IMG/VR virus record: IMGVR_UViG_3300044618_000287
Location: 1 to 23,435 of that record
Strand: one strand, 5' to 3'
From: a virus
DNA: 23,435 bases
Positions 1-9,958 of this stretch are shown in pieces. The position numbers were made by a program, and so were the translations under genes. The number at the start of each line of letters is the position of its first letter. The first letter of the stretch is position 1. Below the pieces are notes generated by a model. It ran no database searches and was not told the DNA's origin. It saw only the letters and a program-made list of their open reading frames with translations.

Positions 1-670
1 CGTCGATACTGATTGGCGGACAGCTTGGGTCCATAGGCGTCACGTTACAGTCAACGGTAGCGGCGGGCGCAATCCACGACAGGATGCCCGACTGGTTCTG
101 GAGGAACTGCGCGTTGCGCCCATAGAAGAGGGTGATGTTGTCGTCCGCAGTTGGACCAGTGATCCCTGCGGTGAAGGTACGACCCCCATTAAAGCCCAGA
201 TTGCCGTAATTCAGTTGTATCTTGCCGTCGGCAAAGAGGCCAATCTCGAAGGTGCTGCTGTTGTTCGTGCCGTATTCTTGGACGCCGTACCAGCCGAAGA
301 GGATCGAGCCATTGTCGCGGCGGTAATAGGGGTTGCCAGTAAAGCTGATTAGGTCTGACCAGTAGGCGTAGATTGTGTTGCGCTGCGCCATTTCGATGGG
401 CTGGCCATTGCAACACAAATGCGCCCCGCTTTGAAACGACACAAAGCCATTGCTCGACACCCACGCATCGGTGAATGTCTGGCCCCAATACTCAAACTCA
501 AAGCCAAGAGCCACGTTCCGCGTGTTGTCATCGCCCAGATTGAGTGGCGTCATCGTCGTGGGAGCGCCGTTGATTTGTGGTGGTATTAGGGCAGGCTCAT
601 AGGTCTGCGCAAAAACAGGTGTTGCGCAAGCCAGCAGAATAACCCGCAAAGCGTATGTCTTATTTCTCAA
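1..670 (-). CDS. Secreted nidogen-like (NIDO) domain protein, partial
   Basis: Reading leftwards from a TTG at 670 gives an open frame of about 223 codons that leaves the window at base 1. Residues 1-21 form a clear signal peptide (basic start, VILLACA core, cleavage at VFA|Q), so the product is probably exported to the periplasm or cell surface. The mature part contains GFEFEYWGQTF, SSNGFVSF, AYWSDL, EIGLFADGKIQLNYG and TAGITG in order. This matches the layout of bacterial nidogen-like extracellular domains, which are adhesion-type beta folds. Two Cys (DCNVT, PSCPP) lie near the visible end. No ATG is available in frame. The TTG overlaps the stop of the upstream gene by 11 bases, and the ribosome site is weak. 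The domain call comes from motif resemblance only. It could be a lysis, exclusion or host-surface factor; no function is established. Confidence 0.72.
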   Translation of the reverse strand, partial: MRNKTYALRVILLACATPVFAQTYEPALIPPQINGAPTTMTPLNLGDDNTRNVALGFEFEYWGQTFTDAWVSSNGFVSFQSGAHLCCNGQPIEMAQRNTIYAYWSDLISFTGNPYYRRDNGSILFGWYGVQEYGTNNSSTFEIGLFADGKIQLNYGNLGFNGGRTFTAGITGPTADDNITLFYGRNAQFLQNQSGILSWIAPAATVDCNVTPMDPSCPPISID

Positions 671-1529
671 CAGGGCGAAGCTCGACGTTTTCGGTCCACG
701 CGGCGCGGGCTTCCTCGCCAATCAATCCCAAGAATGGGCACGGTGTTCCGGCCATCTCCATTGCCCTAAAGACGCGGAAGTCTTGGCACAGGAGGCTGAC
801 GGCGGCGACGCGCATACCCATATCGTAAAGGGTCTTCGACAGCTTCATCCGTTCGCAGTTCTGGTCACGCACGGTGCGGCCAGCCGACAGGCCGATGATC
901 TGCGTCTGCACCGCGCCAGACTGGCCGGTGGTGCAGAGGTCTTGGCTGTAGGACATCATGCTTGGCGCGATGGCGCTCGGCGGCGGCGACTTGATGTTCT
1001 GGTCAATTACCTGCCGGTTGACGCTCTCGCTGTAGCTCTTGCTGTCCGACACGTTGACGTTGTTGTTCTGATTGACGTTGTTCGTCGTGCTGTTGATCGT
1101 GTCGCTGTTGATGTTGCGGTTGGTATTGTTGGCCGTGCTGTTCACGCTTTGGTTGATCGTGCTGTTGCTCGTGTCGGTATTGATATTCCGATTGGTGTTG
1201 TCGGACGTACTGGCCGATGTATTCTGGTTGATGTTGGTCATCGTCCCAGAGTTGATATTATAGTTGGTGTTCGTGTTTGCGGACGTGTTTTGGTTGATAT
1301 TGGTCATCGTGCCAGAGTTGATATTCTGGTTCACGTTCGTGTTGGTGTTCGTGCTGGTGGACGTGTTATTGTTGTTGTTGGTGTTCGTGCTGGTGGACGT
1401 GTTGGTGTTGTTCGACGTGCTGTTCGTCGTCGTGTCGTAGACATACGACGTTGGCGCAGGGGTTGTCTGCGCGAACACGAGGGAGGCCGCGCTAGTGGCG
1501 GCTACAAAACCAAACAGAAAACGCTTCAT
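660..1529 (-). CDS. Exported Asn/Thr-repeat protein with conserved C-terminal domain
   Basis: This encodes a 289-aa protein starting at the ATG of a TGATG overlap with the upstream gene; a GTG one codon earlier is also possible. Residues 1-20 are a signal peptide (KRF then a hydrophobic core, cleavage at VFA|Q). Residues of about 30-165 are almost entirely Asn, Thr and Ser in short repeats such as NINSGTMTNINQNTSA. The C-terminal part (about 180-285) is ordinary globular sequence with SPPPSAIAPS, SGAVQTQI, NCERMKLSKTLYDMGM and AGTPCPFLG, and has four Cys. I recognise this combination of an N/T-rich stretch plus an SPPPSAIAPS-type C-terminus from uncharacterised environmental phage proteins, but no function is known to me. 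The low-complexity part may be a flexible spacer or a beta-solenoid or amyloid-like stretch. Position after a possible holin gene allows an envelope or lysis role, which is inference. Confidence 0.85.
   Translation of the reverse strand: MKRFLFGFVAATSAASLVFAQTTPAPTSYVYDTTTNSTSNNTNTSTSTNTNNNNNTSTSTNTNTNVNQNINSGTMTNINQNTSANTNTNYNINSGTMTNINQNTSASTSDNTNRNINTDTSNSTINQSVNSTANNTNRNINSDTINSTTNNVNQNNNVNVSDSKSYSESVNRQVIDQNIKSPPPSAIAPSMMSYSQDLCTTGQSGAVQTQIIGLSAGRTVRDQNCERMKLSKTLYDMGMRVAAVSLLCQDFRVFRAMEMAGTPCPFLGLIGEEARAAWTENVELRPVEK
1225..1328 (-). repeat. Imperfect direct repeat, 66-base period, in the N/T-rich gene
   Basis: Two copies of a segment encoding INSGTMTNINQNTSA lie 66 bases (22 codons) apart. 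They differ at only a few positions, mostly third codon positions, so the protein repeat is being kept while the DNA drifts. Confidence 0.8.
1344..1403 (-). repeat. Exact 24-base direct repeat, 36-base period, in the N/T-rich gene
   Basis: The same 24 bases occur at 1344-1367 and 1380-1403, 12 codons apart, and encode NTSTSTNT. An identical in-frame repeat of this kind can expand or contract by slippage, changing the length of the Asn/Thr stretch without shifting the frame. Confidence 0.85.
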
Positions 1530-1741
1530 CACCGGTCCGCCTTGTGGTCTAATTTGTCCTCGATCCGGCGAAGGTGCATCATCACCTCGTCGAACTTCTT
1601 GTCAATGGCGTTGAACTTCTCGTCGCCGAAACCAAGGCGCGCCTCAAGCAGCGTCAGACGGCTGTTGAGGTTCACCCACACGGTGATGAGGCCGCCGATA
1701 AAGGCGAGCACAGTGACTATGGTGTTGATGTCGAAGTTCAT
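1529..1741 (-). CDS. Small membrane protein with C-terminal coiled coil, holin candidate
   Basis: This encodes a 70-aa protein. An ATG at 1741 overlaps the stop of the upstream gene (ATGA). Residues 7-25 (IVTVLAFIGGLITVWVNL region) form one hydrophobic membrane segment. Residues 28-70 are charged and heptad-like (SRLTLLEARLG, NAIDKKFDEVMMHLRRIEDKL), typical of a coiled coil. One-TM plus coiled-coil proteins at the end of phage structural blocks are often holin- or spanin-like. The XhlA family has the same parts in the opposite order. No endolysin is visible next to it, so the holin reading is only plausible. The next gene begins at its stop codon, and that gene and the one after encode secreted proteins, which fits a membrane or envelope module. 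Confidence 0.8.
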   Translation of the reverse strand: MNFDINTIVTVLAFIGGLITVWVNLNSRLTLLEARLGFGDEKFNAIDKKFDEVMMHLRRIEDKLDHKADR

Positions 1742-2100
1742 TTCAGGTTCCGCAGCTTGTATATGGTGGTCAGATACGTGTCTGTGACGCCGTCGACTAG
1801 GTTGCCCACAGCGCGGTTGCCCTTGCATATCTCTTCGTGATGCTCTTCAATCCAGTCCGCGTCGGCCTCTAGGAGCTTCAGCACGTCGCGTTCGGTCACC
1901 TTTGGCGCGGGTATGTTGCCAATCAGCTCGAACGCGCCTTGGTAGGCCTCCACGAGCTTGTCGATAGCGTCAATCACGTCGTCGTAGAAGTCGCCCAGTG
2001 ACATGTGCTTTGCAAAGCTGCCGTCGCCCTTGGCGCGCCAGTGCTCGAAGTGTGCGACGTTGCGTGCGTAGAACACGCGGCTGATAAGTTCCTCGATCAT
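1738..2100 (-). CDS. Helical phage protein, DUF5856-like
   Basis: This encodes a 120-aa all-helical protein. The pattern ARNVAHFEHWRAKGDGSFAKHMSLGDFYDDVIDAIDKLVEAYQG resembles a phage family I know as DUF5856 (small-helix-bundle proteins with a conserved AKH...L..YYD..ID..D...E.YQG signature). His and acidic residues at regular helix spacing (H17, H20, H32, D37, D40, E51) recall ferritin-like bundles, though no metal site can be proven from sequence alone. The start ATG overlaps the stop of the upstream gene by four bases, and its own stop overlaps the next start. Function is unknown. It is probably a late-expressed accessory protein because it lies in the fiber operon. The family assignment is from memory of the motif. 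Confidence 0.82.
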   Translation of the reverse strand: MIEELISRVFYARNVAHFEHWRAKGDGSFAKHMSLGDFYDDVIDAIDKLVEAYQGAFELIGNIPAPKVTERDVLKLLEADADWIEEHHEEICKGNRAVGNLVDGVTDTYLTTIYKLRNLK

Positions 2101-2456
2101 GCTTCAGTTCCTTCTGCGACTTCTACCCAAGCCAAGGTAGTTTCATCCCAACGATACAGCTTGCCGTCATCTGGGTAGGCTGTTGGCGCGTCCCACAGGC
2201 AGGCGTCATCGTTCAGCGTCCACGACGCAAATGGCTGTGGCGGGATGAAGGCATCGCGCTCTGCGTCATAAGTGTATCCGATGCCAGCATAGTTCTTACG
2301 CAACGGACGGCCTTCTGGGTGCTGGCCGCCGTGTGTGTTGTACGATGTCTGAACCCAAAGCGCAGGGTCGCCAAATAGGCCCGTGTCGATAACGTCCTGC
2401 TCGATGACCAGAACTTCGGTGACGATGCTGTCGATGACTTTTGCAAAATGTGCCAT
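2097..2456 (-). CDS. Conserved phage protein next to tail fibers, unknown function
   Basis: This encodes a 119-aa soluble protein starting at an ATG preceded by AGGAAA with seven bases spacing. It contains QTSYNTHGGQHPEGRP, KNYAGIGYTYDAERDAFIPPQPF, SWTLNDDACLWDAP and YPDDGKLYRWDE. This is a pattern I recognise from many aquatic phages, where it normally sits beside tail fiber genes, but its role has not been defined to my knowledge. It could be a small virion protein or a fiber assembly factor. It follows the 432-aa glycine-rich fiber gene by only eight bases and overlaps the next gene by four, so it belongs to the same transcript. There are many aromatic residues and no signal peptide or membrane segment. 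Confidence 0.85.
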   Translation of the reverse strand: MAHFAKVIDSIVTEVLVIEQDVIDTGLFGDPALWVQTSYNTHGGQHPEGRPLRKNYAGIGYTYDAERDAFIPPQPFASWTLNDDACLWDAPTAYPDDGKLYRWDETTLAWVEVAEGTEA

Positions 2457-2464
2457 GATGTTTC

Positions 2465-3763
2465 CTATGCGAATGTAATTGAGCCAGATGAATTAAACAC
2501 ATAAACTGTGTCGCTTCCGACAGTGGTTATGGTTGGCGACCCTGTGGTCGCTGTTGCGGCTGCGACTGTGGGTACGCGGATGATGACCACACCGGAACCG
2601 CCAGCAGCACCAGCCGAGTTAGCGAGGATGCCACATGCACCGCCGCCGCCGCCTGTGTTTTGCCCGCCCGCTGTAGCTGGGCTACTGCCTGCTCCCGTGC
2701 CGCCCCCGCCAGCGCCGCCAGCTCCGCCCACCTGTGTGTAAGGACTTCCAGCAGAGAACGAAAAGCCGCCCCCGCCGCCTGCGCGGAACACTGCCGTGCC
2801 GGTAATAGAAGACGATAGGCCAACCCCGCCGACCGCAGGTGTTGAGCGAGAAGAAGTCCCGCTTCCGCCTACCGCGCCAGCACCGCCGCCTGCACCTGAG
2901 TTTCCATATTCAGGTGTAGCCGAAGTATAGTACGCGGCCCCCCCGTTGTTCCCCTGCCCAGCAGTTCCTGTCCCTCCTGTTCCCGTACCACCTGCGCTGG
3001 TCCAAACGCCGCCACCAGAACCACCGGAACCCGCTGCGTAATAAGTGCCCGCGCCAGCGCCGCCGCCGAGAGCAGTAACGGAATTGAAGGAACTATTTGA
3101 ACCGTTTGAGAGGTTTGCGGCACCGCCAGCGCCAACGGAAACCGTATAGGTTCCTGACAAAAGTGCTGTGCCTGTCTGGTAGCCACCAGCCCCACCGCCG
3201 CCTGTCCCTTGACTGGCAGAGTTACCAATTCCGGGACCGCCGCCGCCGACAACTAAGTAACTACTAGTTGCCGGATTAGAGGTAATTGTTCCAAAAGTAA
3301 CTTTCCACGTATCTGTACCTATCTTAACAAGTTGTACGGCGGCACCAGACGCGATTGATGGTATAAGAATTGCGGTACGTGATCCGTTTGGCAGGAGCGA
3401 AACACCGGACTTAGACAACACAATTTCCGTTGTCCCATCATTCACAATCGTAATCACCGACCCAATCGTAAAAGCAACGGATGCGTTGGTCGGAATTGTA
3501 ATCGTCTGTGCGCCAGTGTTGGCCGAATATATCTGCTTGCCAGCGTCACCTAATACCAACGTGTAATTGCCGGACTGCACGTTCTGCGGGTAGGACACCG
3601 CGCTTGATGGGGCTGCGCCAGATACCCAGCCCGTTCCATTGCTGGTCAGCACATTGCCAGCAGTACCCGGAGAGGTTAAACCTGTACCACCGCTACCCGC
3701 AGGTAGTGTGCCTGAAGCTGTCGATACGTTTACCGGAGGAAGGATGCTTGAGAGGGTTGTCAT
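2465..3763 (-). CDS. Glycine-rich distal tail fiber protein
   Basis: This encodes a 432-aa fiber protein, probably trimeric and host-recognising. Residues 26-51 hold a GGTGLTSPGTAGNVLTSNG motif typical of tail fiber shafts. Residues of about 54-150 form a beta module (YPQNVQSGNYTLVLGDAG...). Residues of about 170-385 are a glycine-rich domain with GGGGAGG, VSVGAGG and GGSGVVIIRV, the type found at the tips of many phage fibers. The C-terminus (TVGSDTVYVFNSSGSITFA) is the usual closing strand. From about residue 54 onward the whole protein matches the last 380 residues of the upstream 1215-aa fiber, so it looks like a stand-alone copy of that tip. The ATG overlaps the upstream stop (ATGA). An adhesin role follows from the class, not from direct evidence. 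Confidence 0.88.
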   Translation of the reverse strand: MTTLSSILPPVNVSTASGTLPAGSGGTGLTSPGTAGNVLTSNGTGWVSGAAPSSAVSYPQNVQSGNYTLVLGDAGKQIYSANTGAQTITIPTNASVAFTIGSVITIVNDGTTEIVLSKSGVSLLPNGSRTAILIPSIASGAAVQLVKIGTDTWKVTFGTITSNPATSSYLVVGGGGPGIGNSASQGTGGGGAGGYQTGTALLSGTYTVSVGAGGAANLSNGSNSSFNSVTALGGGAGAGTYYAAGSGGSGGGVWTSAGGTGTGGTGTAGQGNNGGAAYYTSATPEYGNSGAGGGAGAVGGSGTSSRSTPAVGGVGLSSSITGTAVFRAGGGGGFSFSAGSPYTQVGGAGGAGGGGTGAGSSPATAGGQNTGGGGGACGILANSAGAAGGSGVVIIRVPTVAAATATTGSPTITTVGSDTVYVFNSSGSITFA

Positions 3764-6700
3764 GCCGTGTAGCTTCCCGATGAGTTGAACTGTAGAATTG
3801 TGTTGGAGCCACTGGTTGTAACCGTTGGTGAGCCAGTTGTCGTGCCGGTGTAGTCGGCTGTAGGGATTGAGAGGATAACAACACCCGAGCCACCAGCGCC
3901 GCCTGTGCGGACTGTACCTCCACCACCCGTGCCAGCACCGCCGCCGCCGCCGCCGCGATTTGCTGTACCCGCAGAGCCGTTAGCTGCTGCACCACCATTA
4001 CCACCGCCTCCAGCGCCGCCCGTACCAGCAGTACCAGCTAATCGTTTACCACCACCGCCGCCTCCGGCGTAAGTTACCGAGGAGCCAGTAATTGAGCTTG
4101 CTGTACCTGCGCCGCCATTACCGCCAGAAGTACCCGAAGCAGCCGCACCAACAGCAGAAGCGCCGCCACCGCCGCCGCCAACTTGGGCTTCAGCATCGGA
4201 GGTGCTATTTTGTCCGGCACCGCCATTATTACCTTGTCCGCTAGTTCCAGCGCCGCCAGATGTGGTTCCTGAAGCAAACGAACCAGAGCCACCGCCACCA
4301 GATGCGCCAGCGACACCTGCGCCAGTACTTACACCGCTACCACCGCCACCACCGCTGGCCGTTAAACTTAATGCCGAAGAGTTGCTACCGGTGTTTCCGT
4401 TACCATTGCTGGATTGCACAGCAGCACCAGCGCCAACCGTGATTGTGTAGGTGGTTCCAAATGTTAAAGTAGAAGTGCCCGACAACAATCCACCAGCGCC
4501 GCCGCCGCCAGTTCCCATGTTGGTATCGTTTGAGCCACCTGAACCGCCACCAGCGGCAATCAGGTAAGAGGCGGTAGTGGATGTTGTTAACGTGCCTGTG
4601 AGTATGTTCCACGCGTTCGTACCAGTCTTTACCAACTGTACGGGTACACCAGAGGCTATCTTAGGGCTTGTTACGGCTGTCGTGCTCCCAATTTGATAAA
4701 CCGAAACACCAGCTACGCTTAGGGTAATTGTGCTTGTACCCATGTTGAACAGAGTAATTATGGTTCCGATAGGGAACGCCACCGACGCATTGGTTGGTAT
4801 CGTGATGGTCTGCGCACCAGTATTGGCAGAATATATCTGTTTACCGGCATCGCCAAGAACTAGCGTATAGTTGCTGCTTTGTATGTTTTGCGGGTACGCT
4901 GCTATCGGTGCAGCAGACGTCCAGCCAGTGCCGTCACTGGTCAAAACGTTTCCGGCAGTACCTGAGGAAGTTAGCCCCGTACCACCGCCCGATGCCGAAA
5001 CAACACCCGCGCCCGCGCCGCCTACTTGTGCAAACGCGTTCCAAGTCGTGCCGCTATAGACAAGCTGGACGCTGACATTGGAAATGTTGCAGACAAGATC
5101 TTCAGCCAAGCCCTCGATAGTTGAGCCATTGCGGCCAACCGTGAGGTTGTTTGTGGCCCACGAGCTTGAGGTATCAATGACAAATACCTGCGCGCCAACA
5201 GACGGAGTGGCTGGAAGCGTAACAGTGAACGCGCCACCACTGGTGTTGGTTTGCACGCCATCATTGTTGGCAGCGGTATAGTTAGACGTCTTGACCGCAG
5301 TGTACGTAATGCCACCGGCTGATGGGAGCTGTGACACCCACGCGGTTCCGTTGCTGGTGAGGACGTTGCCCGAGGTGCCCGGTGAAGATAGCCCCGTTCC
5401 GCCGTTGGCTGCGGGAAGTACGCCAGACGTGATTTGCGACGCGGCAATGGCGATAGGCGTATTAGTGACGCTCGTCGCCTGACCCTGCGCGTTGACCGCA
5501 ACGACAGGCACGGAGGACGCGCTGCCGTAGGTCGCTGCGCTTACGCCCGTGTTTGTGATGCTAAAGACCGTACCGGCCAGCGTGAGGCCAGTGCCCGCTG
5601 AGTACAGGACCGGCGCGGCGAACTGCGTGAAGACAAGCGCCGTCGTGCCGACCGTGATTGGCAGCGGCGTCTGCTGCACCCACGACGTGTTGGACTGCGT
5701 CGATCCCGCCGTGACGAGGAAGAAGTCGCCCGCGTCAATCTGGTCAACGCCAGCGCCCGCGCTGTCGAAGTCCGTTGCGCGGGTGAGGATGTACGGTGCA
5801 GCGCCGCTGCCGACTTGCGTGACGGTGTAGACGCCGTTGTTTGCCTGCGTCGCCTCGTTCTTGACAAGGATACGGTTGCCCACAACCGCAGCCACGCCAT
5901 CGACCGTAAGCGCGCCGTTAGCGTTGGCCGTAAGCGTTGCGCCGACACCGCTGGTGCCGTTGTTGTACGTGTTGGCGGGCAGAGCCGCAGCCGTCGCCAA
6001 GCGCACGGACTGGTGGAAGTTGATGCCTGATGCGATACTGTCGGCGTAGAGCTTGTTGACGATGTCCGTGCCACTGACTGGCGACGCGCTGATCGTACCG
6101 GTGGTGAGCGCAATCGACGTGATGTCGGTGTTCGCGCCAGAGGCCGCCGCGCTAAGGTTCGACCGCGCCGTGGCTGCTATGCTCGCGCCTGTGCCTCCGT
6201 TGGCCACCGCAACAACACCAGTGACATTTGAGGCCGTGCCGGTCGTATTCTGATTGAGCGTCGGTATGTCCGCCGCAACGATAGCGCGGAACGTCGGAAC
6301 GCCCGCCGAGCCGTTTGGCGCTGCAAGGACAGTGTTGGCCGTCTGCGACGCGAAGTTGGATGGCGTGACGACGAGCGTCCCGCCGAGTGTCAGCGAACCT
6401 GCGGACGTCACTGTGCCGCTCAGGCTCAGGCCGCTGACGGAGCCGGTGCCTGAGACTGACGTCACCGTACCTGTGCCCCCCGTGGAGGTGATAGTGAAAT
6501 TCGGGTATGTACCGGTGACGGACGTCAAACCCGCGCCAGTCAGCGACACAATTTGGTCGGGCGCGGTGTTGACGACGTTGATAGAGCCCGCGGTTGTTAT
6601 CGGGCCGCCGGATACGCTGATGCCTGTGCCCGCCGTCAAGTTGACACTCGTGACCGTGCCAACGCCTGAGATTGTCCCCCATTGCGGCTCGTCCGTGCCG

Positions 6701-9517: not shown

Positions 9518-9958
9518 TTACTTACCTTTCTTGCGGGCCGCAGCGTATGAGCCTCTGGCTGTTAAATACTTTATTGCGGACTGTAGCACGTCAGTGCTTT
9601 CCGATGCCATACCAAGAAGCGAATTACATTTTAAGCAAAGAATGCCCCTAAACTCGCCTGTCTCGTGGTTGTGGTCTATGGCGTATCCGCGCCGACGATT
9701 GTCGTACACCATAAGGTCTGGCAATTCAGTTTCGCATATCGCGCAGTTGCCTGATTGATCTCCCCAAGCCTTTGAGAACTCGGCGTGCGAAATGCCGTAT
9801 TTGTACTTCAGGTGCTGTTCCAACCGTTTAAGTGGAGTGCGGCTGCCCCAACAAGTTTTCTGTTTGTGCTTACTGCATGGGATGCAAGCGGACTGGCCCT
9901 TCCAGAAATCTCCGATAGGCTTTGTCGCGTCACAAGTTTTGCAGTATTTTTCCGTCAC
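9518..9958 (-). CDS. Recombination endonuclease VII-type HNH nuclease
   Basis: This encodes a 146-aa nuclease. The start GTG overlaps the upstream stop (GTGA). Residues 5-28 form a small zinc ribbon (C6-x2-C9, C25-x2-C28). The catalytic part has YGIS at 54-57, GNCAIC (C72, C75), IDHNHETG (D95, H96, H98) and RGILCLKCN (C108, C111). This is the His-Me finger with paired zinc Cys of the endonuclease VII family (Pfam PF02945), which cleaves branched DNA in phage T4 and occurs as free-standing homing-like HNH genes elsewhere. All key residues are present. It sits among small virion-region genes rather than replication genes, and its DNA is visibly less GC-rich than the fibers around it, so a mobile origin is likely. 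Confidence 0.88.
   Translation of the reverse strand: MTEKYCKTCDATKPIGDFWKGQSACIPCSKHKQKTCWGSRTPLKRLEQHLKYKYGISHAEFSKAWGDQSGNCAICETELPDLMVYDNRRRGYAIDHNHETGEFRGILCLKCNSLLGMASESTDVLQSAIKYLTARGSYAAARKKGK

Follow-up and report, generated by a model that had tools for sequence, protein, structure and literature searches.

A conserved set of two exported proteins and a membrane-anchored coiled-coil protein in freshwater and marine phages, with a possible role at the outer-membrane step of lysis

RESULTS

A three-gene unit at the lysis side of a virus fragment

Hundreds of freshwater and marine phages or phage contigs carry a conserved unit of three genes, designated A, B, and C here, of which the first two encode exported proteins and the third a predicted inner-membrane coiled-coil protein. 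We propose, at a probability of roughly 40%, that their products form a phage envelope complex, exported late, that acts at the outer-membrane step of lysis, either alongside spanins or as a substitute for them. The starting point was an IMG/VR virus fragment of 23,435 bases, hereafter called the window (the whole stretch of DNA analyzed). Its minus-strand genes extend from terminase and portal as far as the left edge. The features of the window and of its continuation on the identical virus L083 are as follows.

1738..2100, minus strand: DUF5856/ferritin-like gene (Pfam DUF5856, 1.2e-12), upstream border marker of the lysis slot
1529..1741, minus strand: 70-aa TM/coiled-coil gene
660..1529, minus strand: gene A, 289 aa, exported Asn/Thr/Ser-repeat protein with a conserved C-terminal 4-Cys domain
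1470..1529, minus strand: signal peptide of A ending SLVFA/QT, read by eye
993..1466, minus strand: N/T/S-rich low-complexity region of A with two-residue alternation
663..992, minus strand: PPPSAIAPS spacer and 4-Cys helical domain of A, the hallmark of the module
2..721, minus strand: N-terminal part of gene B, truncated where the contig ends (start TTG 721 or TTG 670)
608..670, minus strand: signal peptide of B ending PVFA/QT if the start is TTG 670, read by eye
74..607, minus strand: NIDO/RemA-like beta-sandwich head of B, an exchangeable module
793-1314 bases left of base 1, on L083: gene C, 173 aa, predicted inner-membrane coiled-coil protein
1317-1817 bases left of base 1, L083:7987-8487: TM protein with an acidic EF-hand-like tail, holin candidate
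1814-2428 bases left of base 1: GH19 endolysin (PHROG 181 endolysin, 7.6e-60; Pfam Glyco_hydro_19, 2.3e-11)
L083:9110-9295: tm61, 61 aa, cationic amphipathic N-terminal helix plus TM segment, after the endolysin

A preliminary description of the window had reported three genes (the 70-aa gene, A, and B) coupled head to tail by overlaps, and the junctions bear this out. The end of the DUF5856-like gene and the start of the 70-aa gene share ATGA (1741-1738), the 70-aa gene and A meet in TGATG (1531-1527), and B starts within A, with an overlap of 11 bases from TTG 670 or 62 bases from TTG 721. The DUF5856/ferritin-like neighbor is shared by 48 loci. Among the structural genes of the window sits a 146-aa Cys-rich ORF that resembles HNH/endonuclease VII-type nucleases (9518-9958).

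L083 is 100% identical to positions 1-6670 of the window (6,670 bases) and reaches 4.1 kb past base 1. After A it encodes the complete B (492-509 aa depending on the start), C, the TM protein, the GH19 endolysin, and tm61. The window thus stops inside B, and because the operon goes on with C, the TM protein, and an endolysin that begins ~1.8 kb left of base 1, the three window genes are not the end of the late operon, as had been proposed, and the suggestion that the module has no recognizable endolysin was wrong. The TM protein has a long acidic tail with an EF-hand/dockerin-like loop at its end (Dockerin, E=0.094), and tm61 could be a pinholin or a disruptin-like peptide. An ordinary holin-endolysin-spanin cassette to the left had been named as an outcome that would weaken the idea, and the result is mixed: endolysin and holin candidates are indeed there, but the cassettes of 92 GH19-clade loci contained neither a spanin pair nor a lipobox or lipoprotein ORF, unless an LLAC of doubtful value in the B of three loci is counted.

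Conservation of A, B, and C

Gene C lies downstream of A in all 278 loci with room for it under a uniform room rule. These loci represent five phage lineages and 229 distinct A sequences, but relatedness and some redundancy among them mean that the counts do not represent independent events. A six-frame survey placed C downstream of A in 135/135 loci, and in 160/160 more from three divergent lineages. The association is also specific: of 167 matches to the C profile, 164 were located no more than 5 kb downstream of A, and of the three that remain, two were on contigs that start after A. An exported gene separates A from C in 82/82 loci of the roseophage type, 72/76 of the pelagiphage type, and 84/90 of the GH19 clade.

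The conserved unit is therefore A-B-C, not the 70-aa gene with A and B. Conservation of the earlier trio in relatives held for A and B, far beyond what the sequence alone had indicated, but the third member is C, outside the window. Of 80 GH19-clade loci, 51 have the 70-aa gene upstream of A, 5 have another small TM gene at that place, and 24 have neither. Since the 70-aa gene is so frequently missing, the earlier trio was rejected as the functional unit. The anatomy described for its product, a coiled-coil protein with one TM segment, proved correct: the TM segment is N-terminal and the C-terminal coiled coil is predicted to be cytoplasmic (C-in in 62/67 relatives). The protein had no match by tblastn among phage isolates and a weak holin match among PHROGs (PHROG 1296, E=0.021); from its sequence, it may be a holin/XhlA-like accessory outside the conserved core.

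Gene calling and clustering gave the order DUF5856 - 70-aa gene - A - B - C - TM167 - endolysin - tm61 in the freshwater relatives. In marine relatives, A-B-C is accompanied by different lysis genes. Downstream of A, a gene for an exported protein and then one for a coiled-coil protein with a TM segment are also found in the pelagiphages HTVC115P, HTVC202P, HTVC033P, and Baldr, in the myophage Mosig, and in the roseophages CRP-207 and CRP-810. For eight A-B-C isolates the host is named, and in every case it is SAR11 or a member of the Rhodobacteraceae/roseobacters. The hosts of A-B-C phages are thus apparently alphaproteobacterial, that of the window virus being judged from its Caulobacter-phage-like backbone.

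A was also present in 27 loci from genome bins (L171-L197). Nearly all of these are metagenome-assembled and resemble phage contigs; they were not counted as chromosomal, and a bacterial chromosomal origin was rejected. The bins are assigned to many unrelated phyla (Actinomycetota, Bacteroidetes, Trichodesmium, even archaea) and probably contain misbinned phage contigs.

We found no characterized homologue of any part of A-B-C, nor a description of the module in the literature, our search of which was thin on subscription journals. Several deposited annotations are questionable. CRP-207 gp73 (L169:3292-3873) and CRP-810 gp51 (L167:6165-6587), labeled "putative lysozyme" and "lysozyme," are actually C-family TM coiled-coil proteins ending in NPL; CRP-207 gp73 matched no lysozyme family, and both labels are likely misannotations. 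The labels "OmpA family" on A of CRP-810 and "tonB" on B of ctXG6705 are doubtful as well.

Features of the A, B, and C proteins

The signals of both A and B end in VFA/QT, as described before and confirmed by eye. A test based on crude hydropathy and A-x-A rules concurs, detecting an export signature in 116/133 A relatives and 129/153 B relatives as opposed to 63/468 background proteins.

The mature part of A begins with a repeat region of 158 residues in the window and 90-498 across the family. Its composition (N 31%, T 22%, S 15%), the two-residue alternation (z 4.9), and the family alignment agree with the initial portrayal of A as an Asn/Thr-repeat protein with a conserved C terminus. The latter is strongly conserved and has four invariant cysteines. 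Structure prediction, which had been suggested as a check, yielded a four-helix unit for the C-terminal domain (AF2; pLDDT ~85-93 for residues 44-101, <50 for the first 41 residues). This model, partly of low confidence, had no fold match in the PDB, and its matches in BFVD were solely to uncharacterized viral proteins.

B is composed of a conserved tail and exchanged N-terminal heads, which are NIDO-like, CBM-like, or of other types. The head in the window (residues 1-178) was modeled as a beta-sandwich, mostly at pLDDT 77-96, followed by a long helix, a disordered stretch, and a C-terminal helical part that is conserved but was modeled at low confidence. The first description of B as NIDO-like stands at the level of profiles, with E=1.4e-11 between the B head and the mobile adhesin RemA (8gl6) and a Pfam NIDO (PF06119) match in 1 of 44 B relatives (E=0.0017), but the window protein by itself had no Pfam match, and Foldseek with the full B model returned nothing significant in spite of the RemA match by sequence profile. 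The alignment covers the N terminus of RemA; the acidic linker and the conserved C-terminal helices of B are unrelated to it. B had no match by tblastn among phage isolates, and in the ctXG group it was identified by eye in one isolate.

A natural head swap is seen between L025/L036, with a CBM-like head, and L037/L040, with a NIDO-like head. The heads are 14-15% identical, as opposed to 72-78% for the B tail, 72-74% for C, and 83-86% for the endolysin. The CBM label is a weak one: a single pelagiphage B matched CBM_4_9 at E=0.02.

In 129 relatives, C has a TM segment within its first 40 residues, for which a charge rule predicted an N-in orientation in 101 and C-in in 11; like the signal peptide calls, these topology calls are crude. 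Matches to coiled-coil profiles indicate that the remainder contains a coiled coil, predicted to be periplasmic. C ends in Asn-Pro-Leu (NPL) in 149 of 153 distinct sequences. The same end was found in ~11 of 2,000 other ORFs, or ~0.5% (by subtraction).

The genomic slot and its relationship to spanins

Among isolates, Caulobacter phages come closest to the window backbone, with TerL 59% identical. On this same backbone, Caulobacter phage RW fills the slot, flanked by a DUF5856-like gene on one side and the 217-aa tail gene on the other, with an ordinary lysis cassette instead of A-B-C: an M15 endolysin (PHROG 894, 5.1e-42), a TM protein of 76 aa, and a lipoprotein. The DUF5856-like counterpart and the flanking homology were recognized by eye. 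A, B, and C were not found in that slot.

A second case of slot identity, which covers two backbones in all (Mosig type and RW), involves spanins directly. In the T4-like marine myophages HTVC008M and Melnitz, a TM gene and the genes for DNA primase and ribonucleotide reductase are closely preceded by a spanin pair, made up of an i-spanin of the Rz type and a lipoprotein o-spanin (PHROG 739 and 812). At that position Mosig has A-B-C, with flanking homology at E values of 2e-23, 6e-23, and <1e-106, and no spanin adjoins A-B-C there. In the deposited record of HTVC008M (L439:3989-4720 = 117049-117780), both spanin genes are frameshifted; the Melnitz copies are intact and overlap.

Across the loci with room, a spanin pair was present beside A-B-C in 18/165 (7/35 marine, 11/33 pelagiphage type) and absent from 63 GH19-clade, 19 ctXG-type, and 15 roseophage-type loci, these counts covering relatives of PHROG 739/812, which other spanin types could escape. 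As PHROG 739 also matches 11 of 14 control genomes, its weak matches were disregarded. The presence of both sets in the same 18 loci indicates that A-B-C is not a simple alternative to spanins, and strict spanin replacement was rejected.

The genomic context argues in both directions. The A-B-C-TM167-GH19 endolysin order and the lack of these spanins in the GH19 clade support a role in lysis. The co-occurrence with spanins counts against it, as do the 20/86 loci that have no recognized lysis gene nearby (among the families tried) and the position of the module before the terminase in HTVC202P and Baldr.

DISCUSSION

The A-C linkage, the proximity to lysis genes in the window clade, and the spanin slot in one myophage best support one of the functional classes envisaged in the preliminary description, a lysis or envelope module. 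In the complex that we propose, the N-terminal TM segment of C would hold the protein in the inner membrane, and its coiled coil with the NPL tip would project into the periplasm. Exported A would provide a long N/T-rich region, either flexible or forming a beta-ladder, and a disulfide-type helical domain, while the interchangeable head of exported B, NIDO-like in the window, would bind a ligand in the host envelope, probably a glycan. The conserved C-terminal helices of B are a candidate dock to C or A. The holin and GH19 endolysin would remove the peptidoglycan first, and the tethered complex would then disrupt or detach the outer layers. A more specific version pictures a lipoprotein-free, three-part machine that breaches the outer envelope, in which a coiled coil that ends in NPL serves as the inner-membrane tether and operates with exported partners, and an exchangeable head grips host-specific surface glycans; we regard it as speculative and on balance unlikely.

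By analogy, A-B-C plausibly works like a spanin system. C resembles the i-spanin of two-component spanins (Rz/Rz1; PHROG 739, 812) in combining an N-terminal TM segment with a periplasmic coiled coil, Mosig has A-B-C in the slot that holds the HTVC008M and Melnitz spanins, and the module adjoins holin and endolysin genes in the window clade. However, it comprises three genes instead of two, its exported partners are not lipidated and include a large swappable head, it lacks a lipoprotein partner, and it can coexist with spanins. In addition, A, B, and C had no match to the spanin PHROGs, and we therefore do not place A-B-C among the spanins.

The main rival to a role at the lysis step is superinfection exclusion or receptor masking, in which the exported proteins coat or plug a receptor so that progeny or competitors are not bound by infected cells or by debris, and the B head follows the receptor type. 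The exchangeable, lectin/adhesin-like head of B, the restriction of the eight isolates with named hosts to SAR11 or Rhodobacteraceae/roseobacters, and the occasional location of the module away from lysis genes are all in line with such a function. Against it stand the late position beside the lysis genes in the window clade and the occurrence of the module in a spanin slot, and we consider exclusion doubtful. T4 Spackle (PF25676), likewise a small exported helical phage protein, gave a profile likeness to the A domain below threshold (14.1 bits against a cut-off of 27; E~0.07, 2/34 members). A differs by its long repeat region and its place in a fixed three-gene set; with the match below threshold and no PDB fold match, its identification as Spackle was rejected, which weakens the case for exclusion.

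The N/T/S-rich repeats of A with their two-residue alternation, together with the RemA similarity of the B head, might also suggest a surface adhesin or amyloid-like fiber, with A repeats assembling outside the cell and B serving as an adhesin for host aggregation or progeny capture. Phage-encoded exported envelope proteins of this sort have a precedent in the curli (T8SS) operons of pelagiphages (PMC9599517, PMC7029224). However, the A and B proteins, to which the search was limited, matched none of the CsgG/CsgF/CsgA families, no outer-membrane secretion component appears among the shared genes seen, and a fiber would not need an inner-membrane protein such as C. A-B-C differs from the published curli operon in this anchored component and in its linkage to lysis or spanin genes in several lineages; it was rejected as a curli system, and a fiber by analogy with curli appears improbable.

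It is less probable still that tm61 performs the outer-membrane step in this clade and that A-B-C has an unrelated envelope role. The tm61 gene does follow the endolysin in most GH19-clade loci (a cluster of 69), but its product had no match to a lysis family, and the linkage of A with C is universal across lineages. Finally, the late region, weak fibritin-type profile matches of the coiled coil, and a weak tape-measure profile match of one C would fit virion parts (tail or whisker proteins) with unusual signal peptides, which the Sec-type signals on A and B and the family-wide N-terminal TM segment of C make very unlikely.

If A-B-C is the lipoprotein-free, three-part machine of the more specific version, it would constitute an additional way to finish lysis in Gram-negative hosts, besides spanins and disruptins, and one that is common in phages of aquatic hosts that are apparently alphaproteobacterial. 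Lake and ocean phage contigs by the hundreds, as well as isolates of SAR11 and roseobacters, carry the set under the label "hypothetical protein" or the wrong labels "lysozyme," "OmpA," or "tonB." For the breakage of the outer membrane by aquatic phages without recognizable spanins, A-B-C offers named genes, a near-invariant short C-terminal motif, and natural domain swaps.
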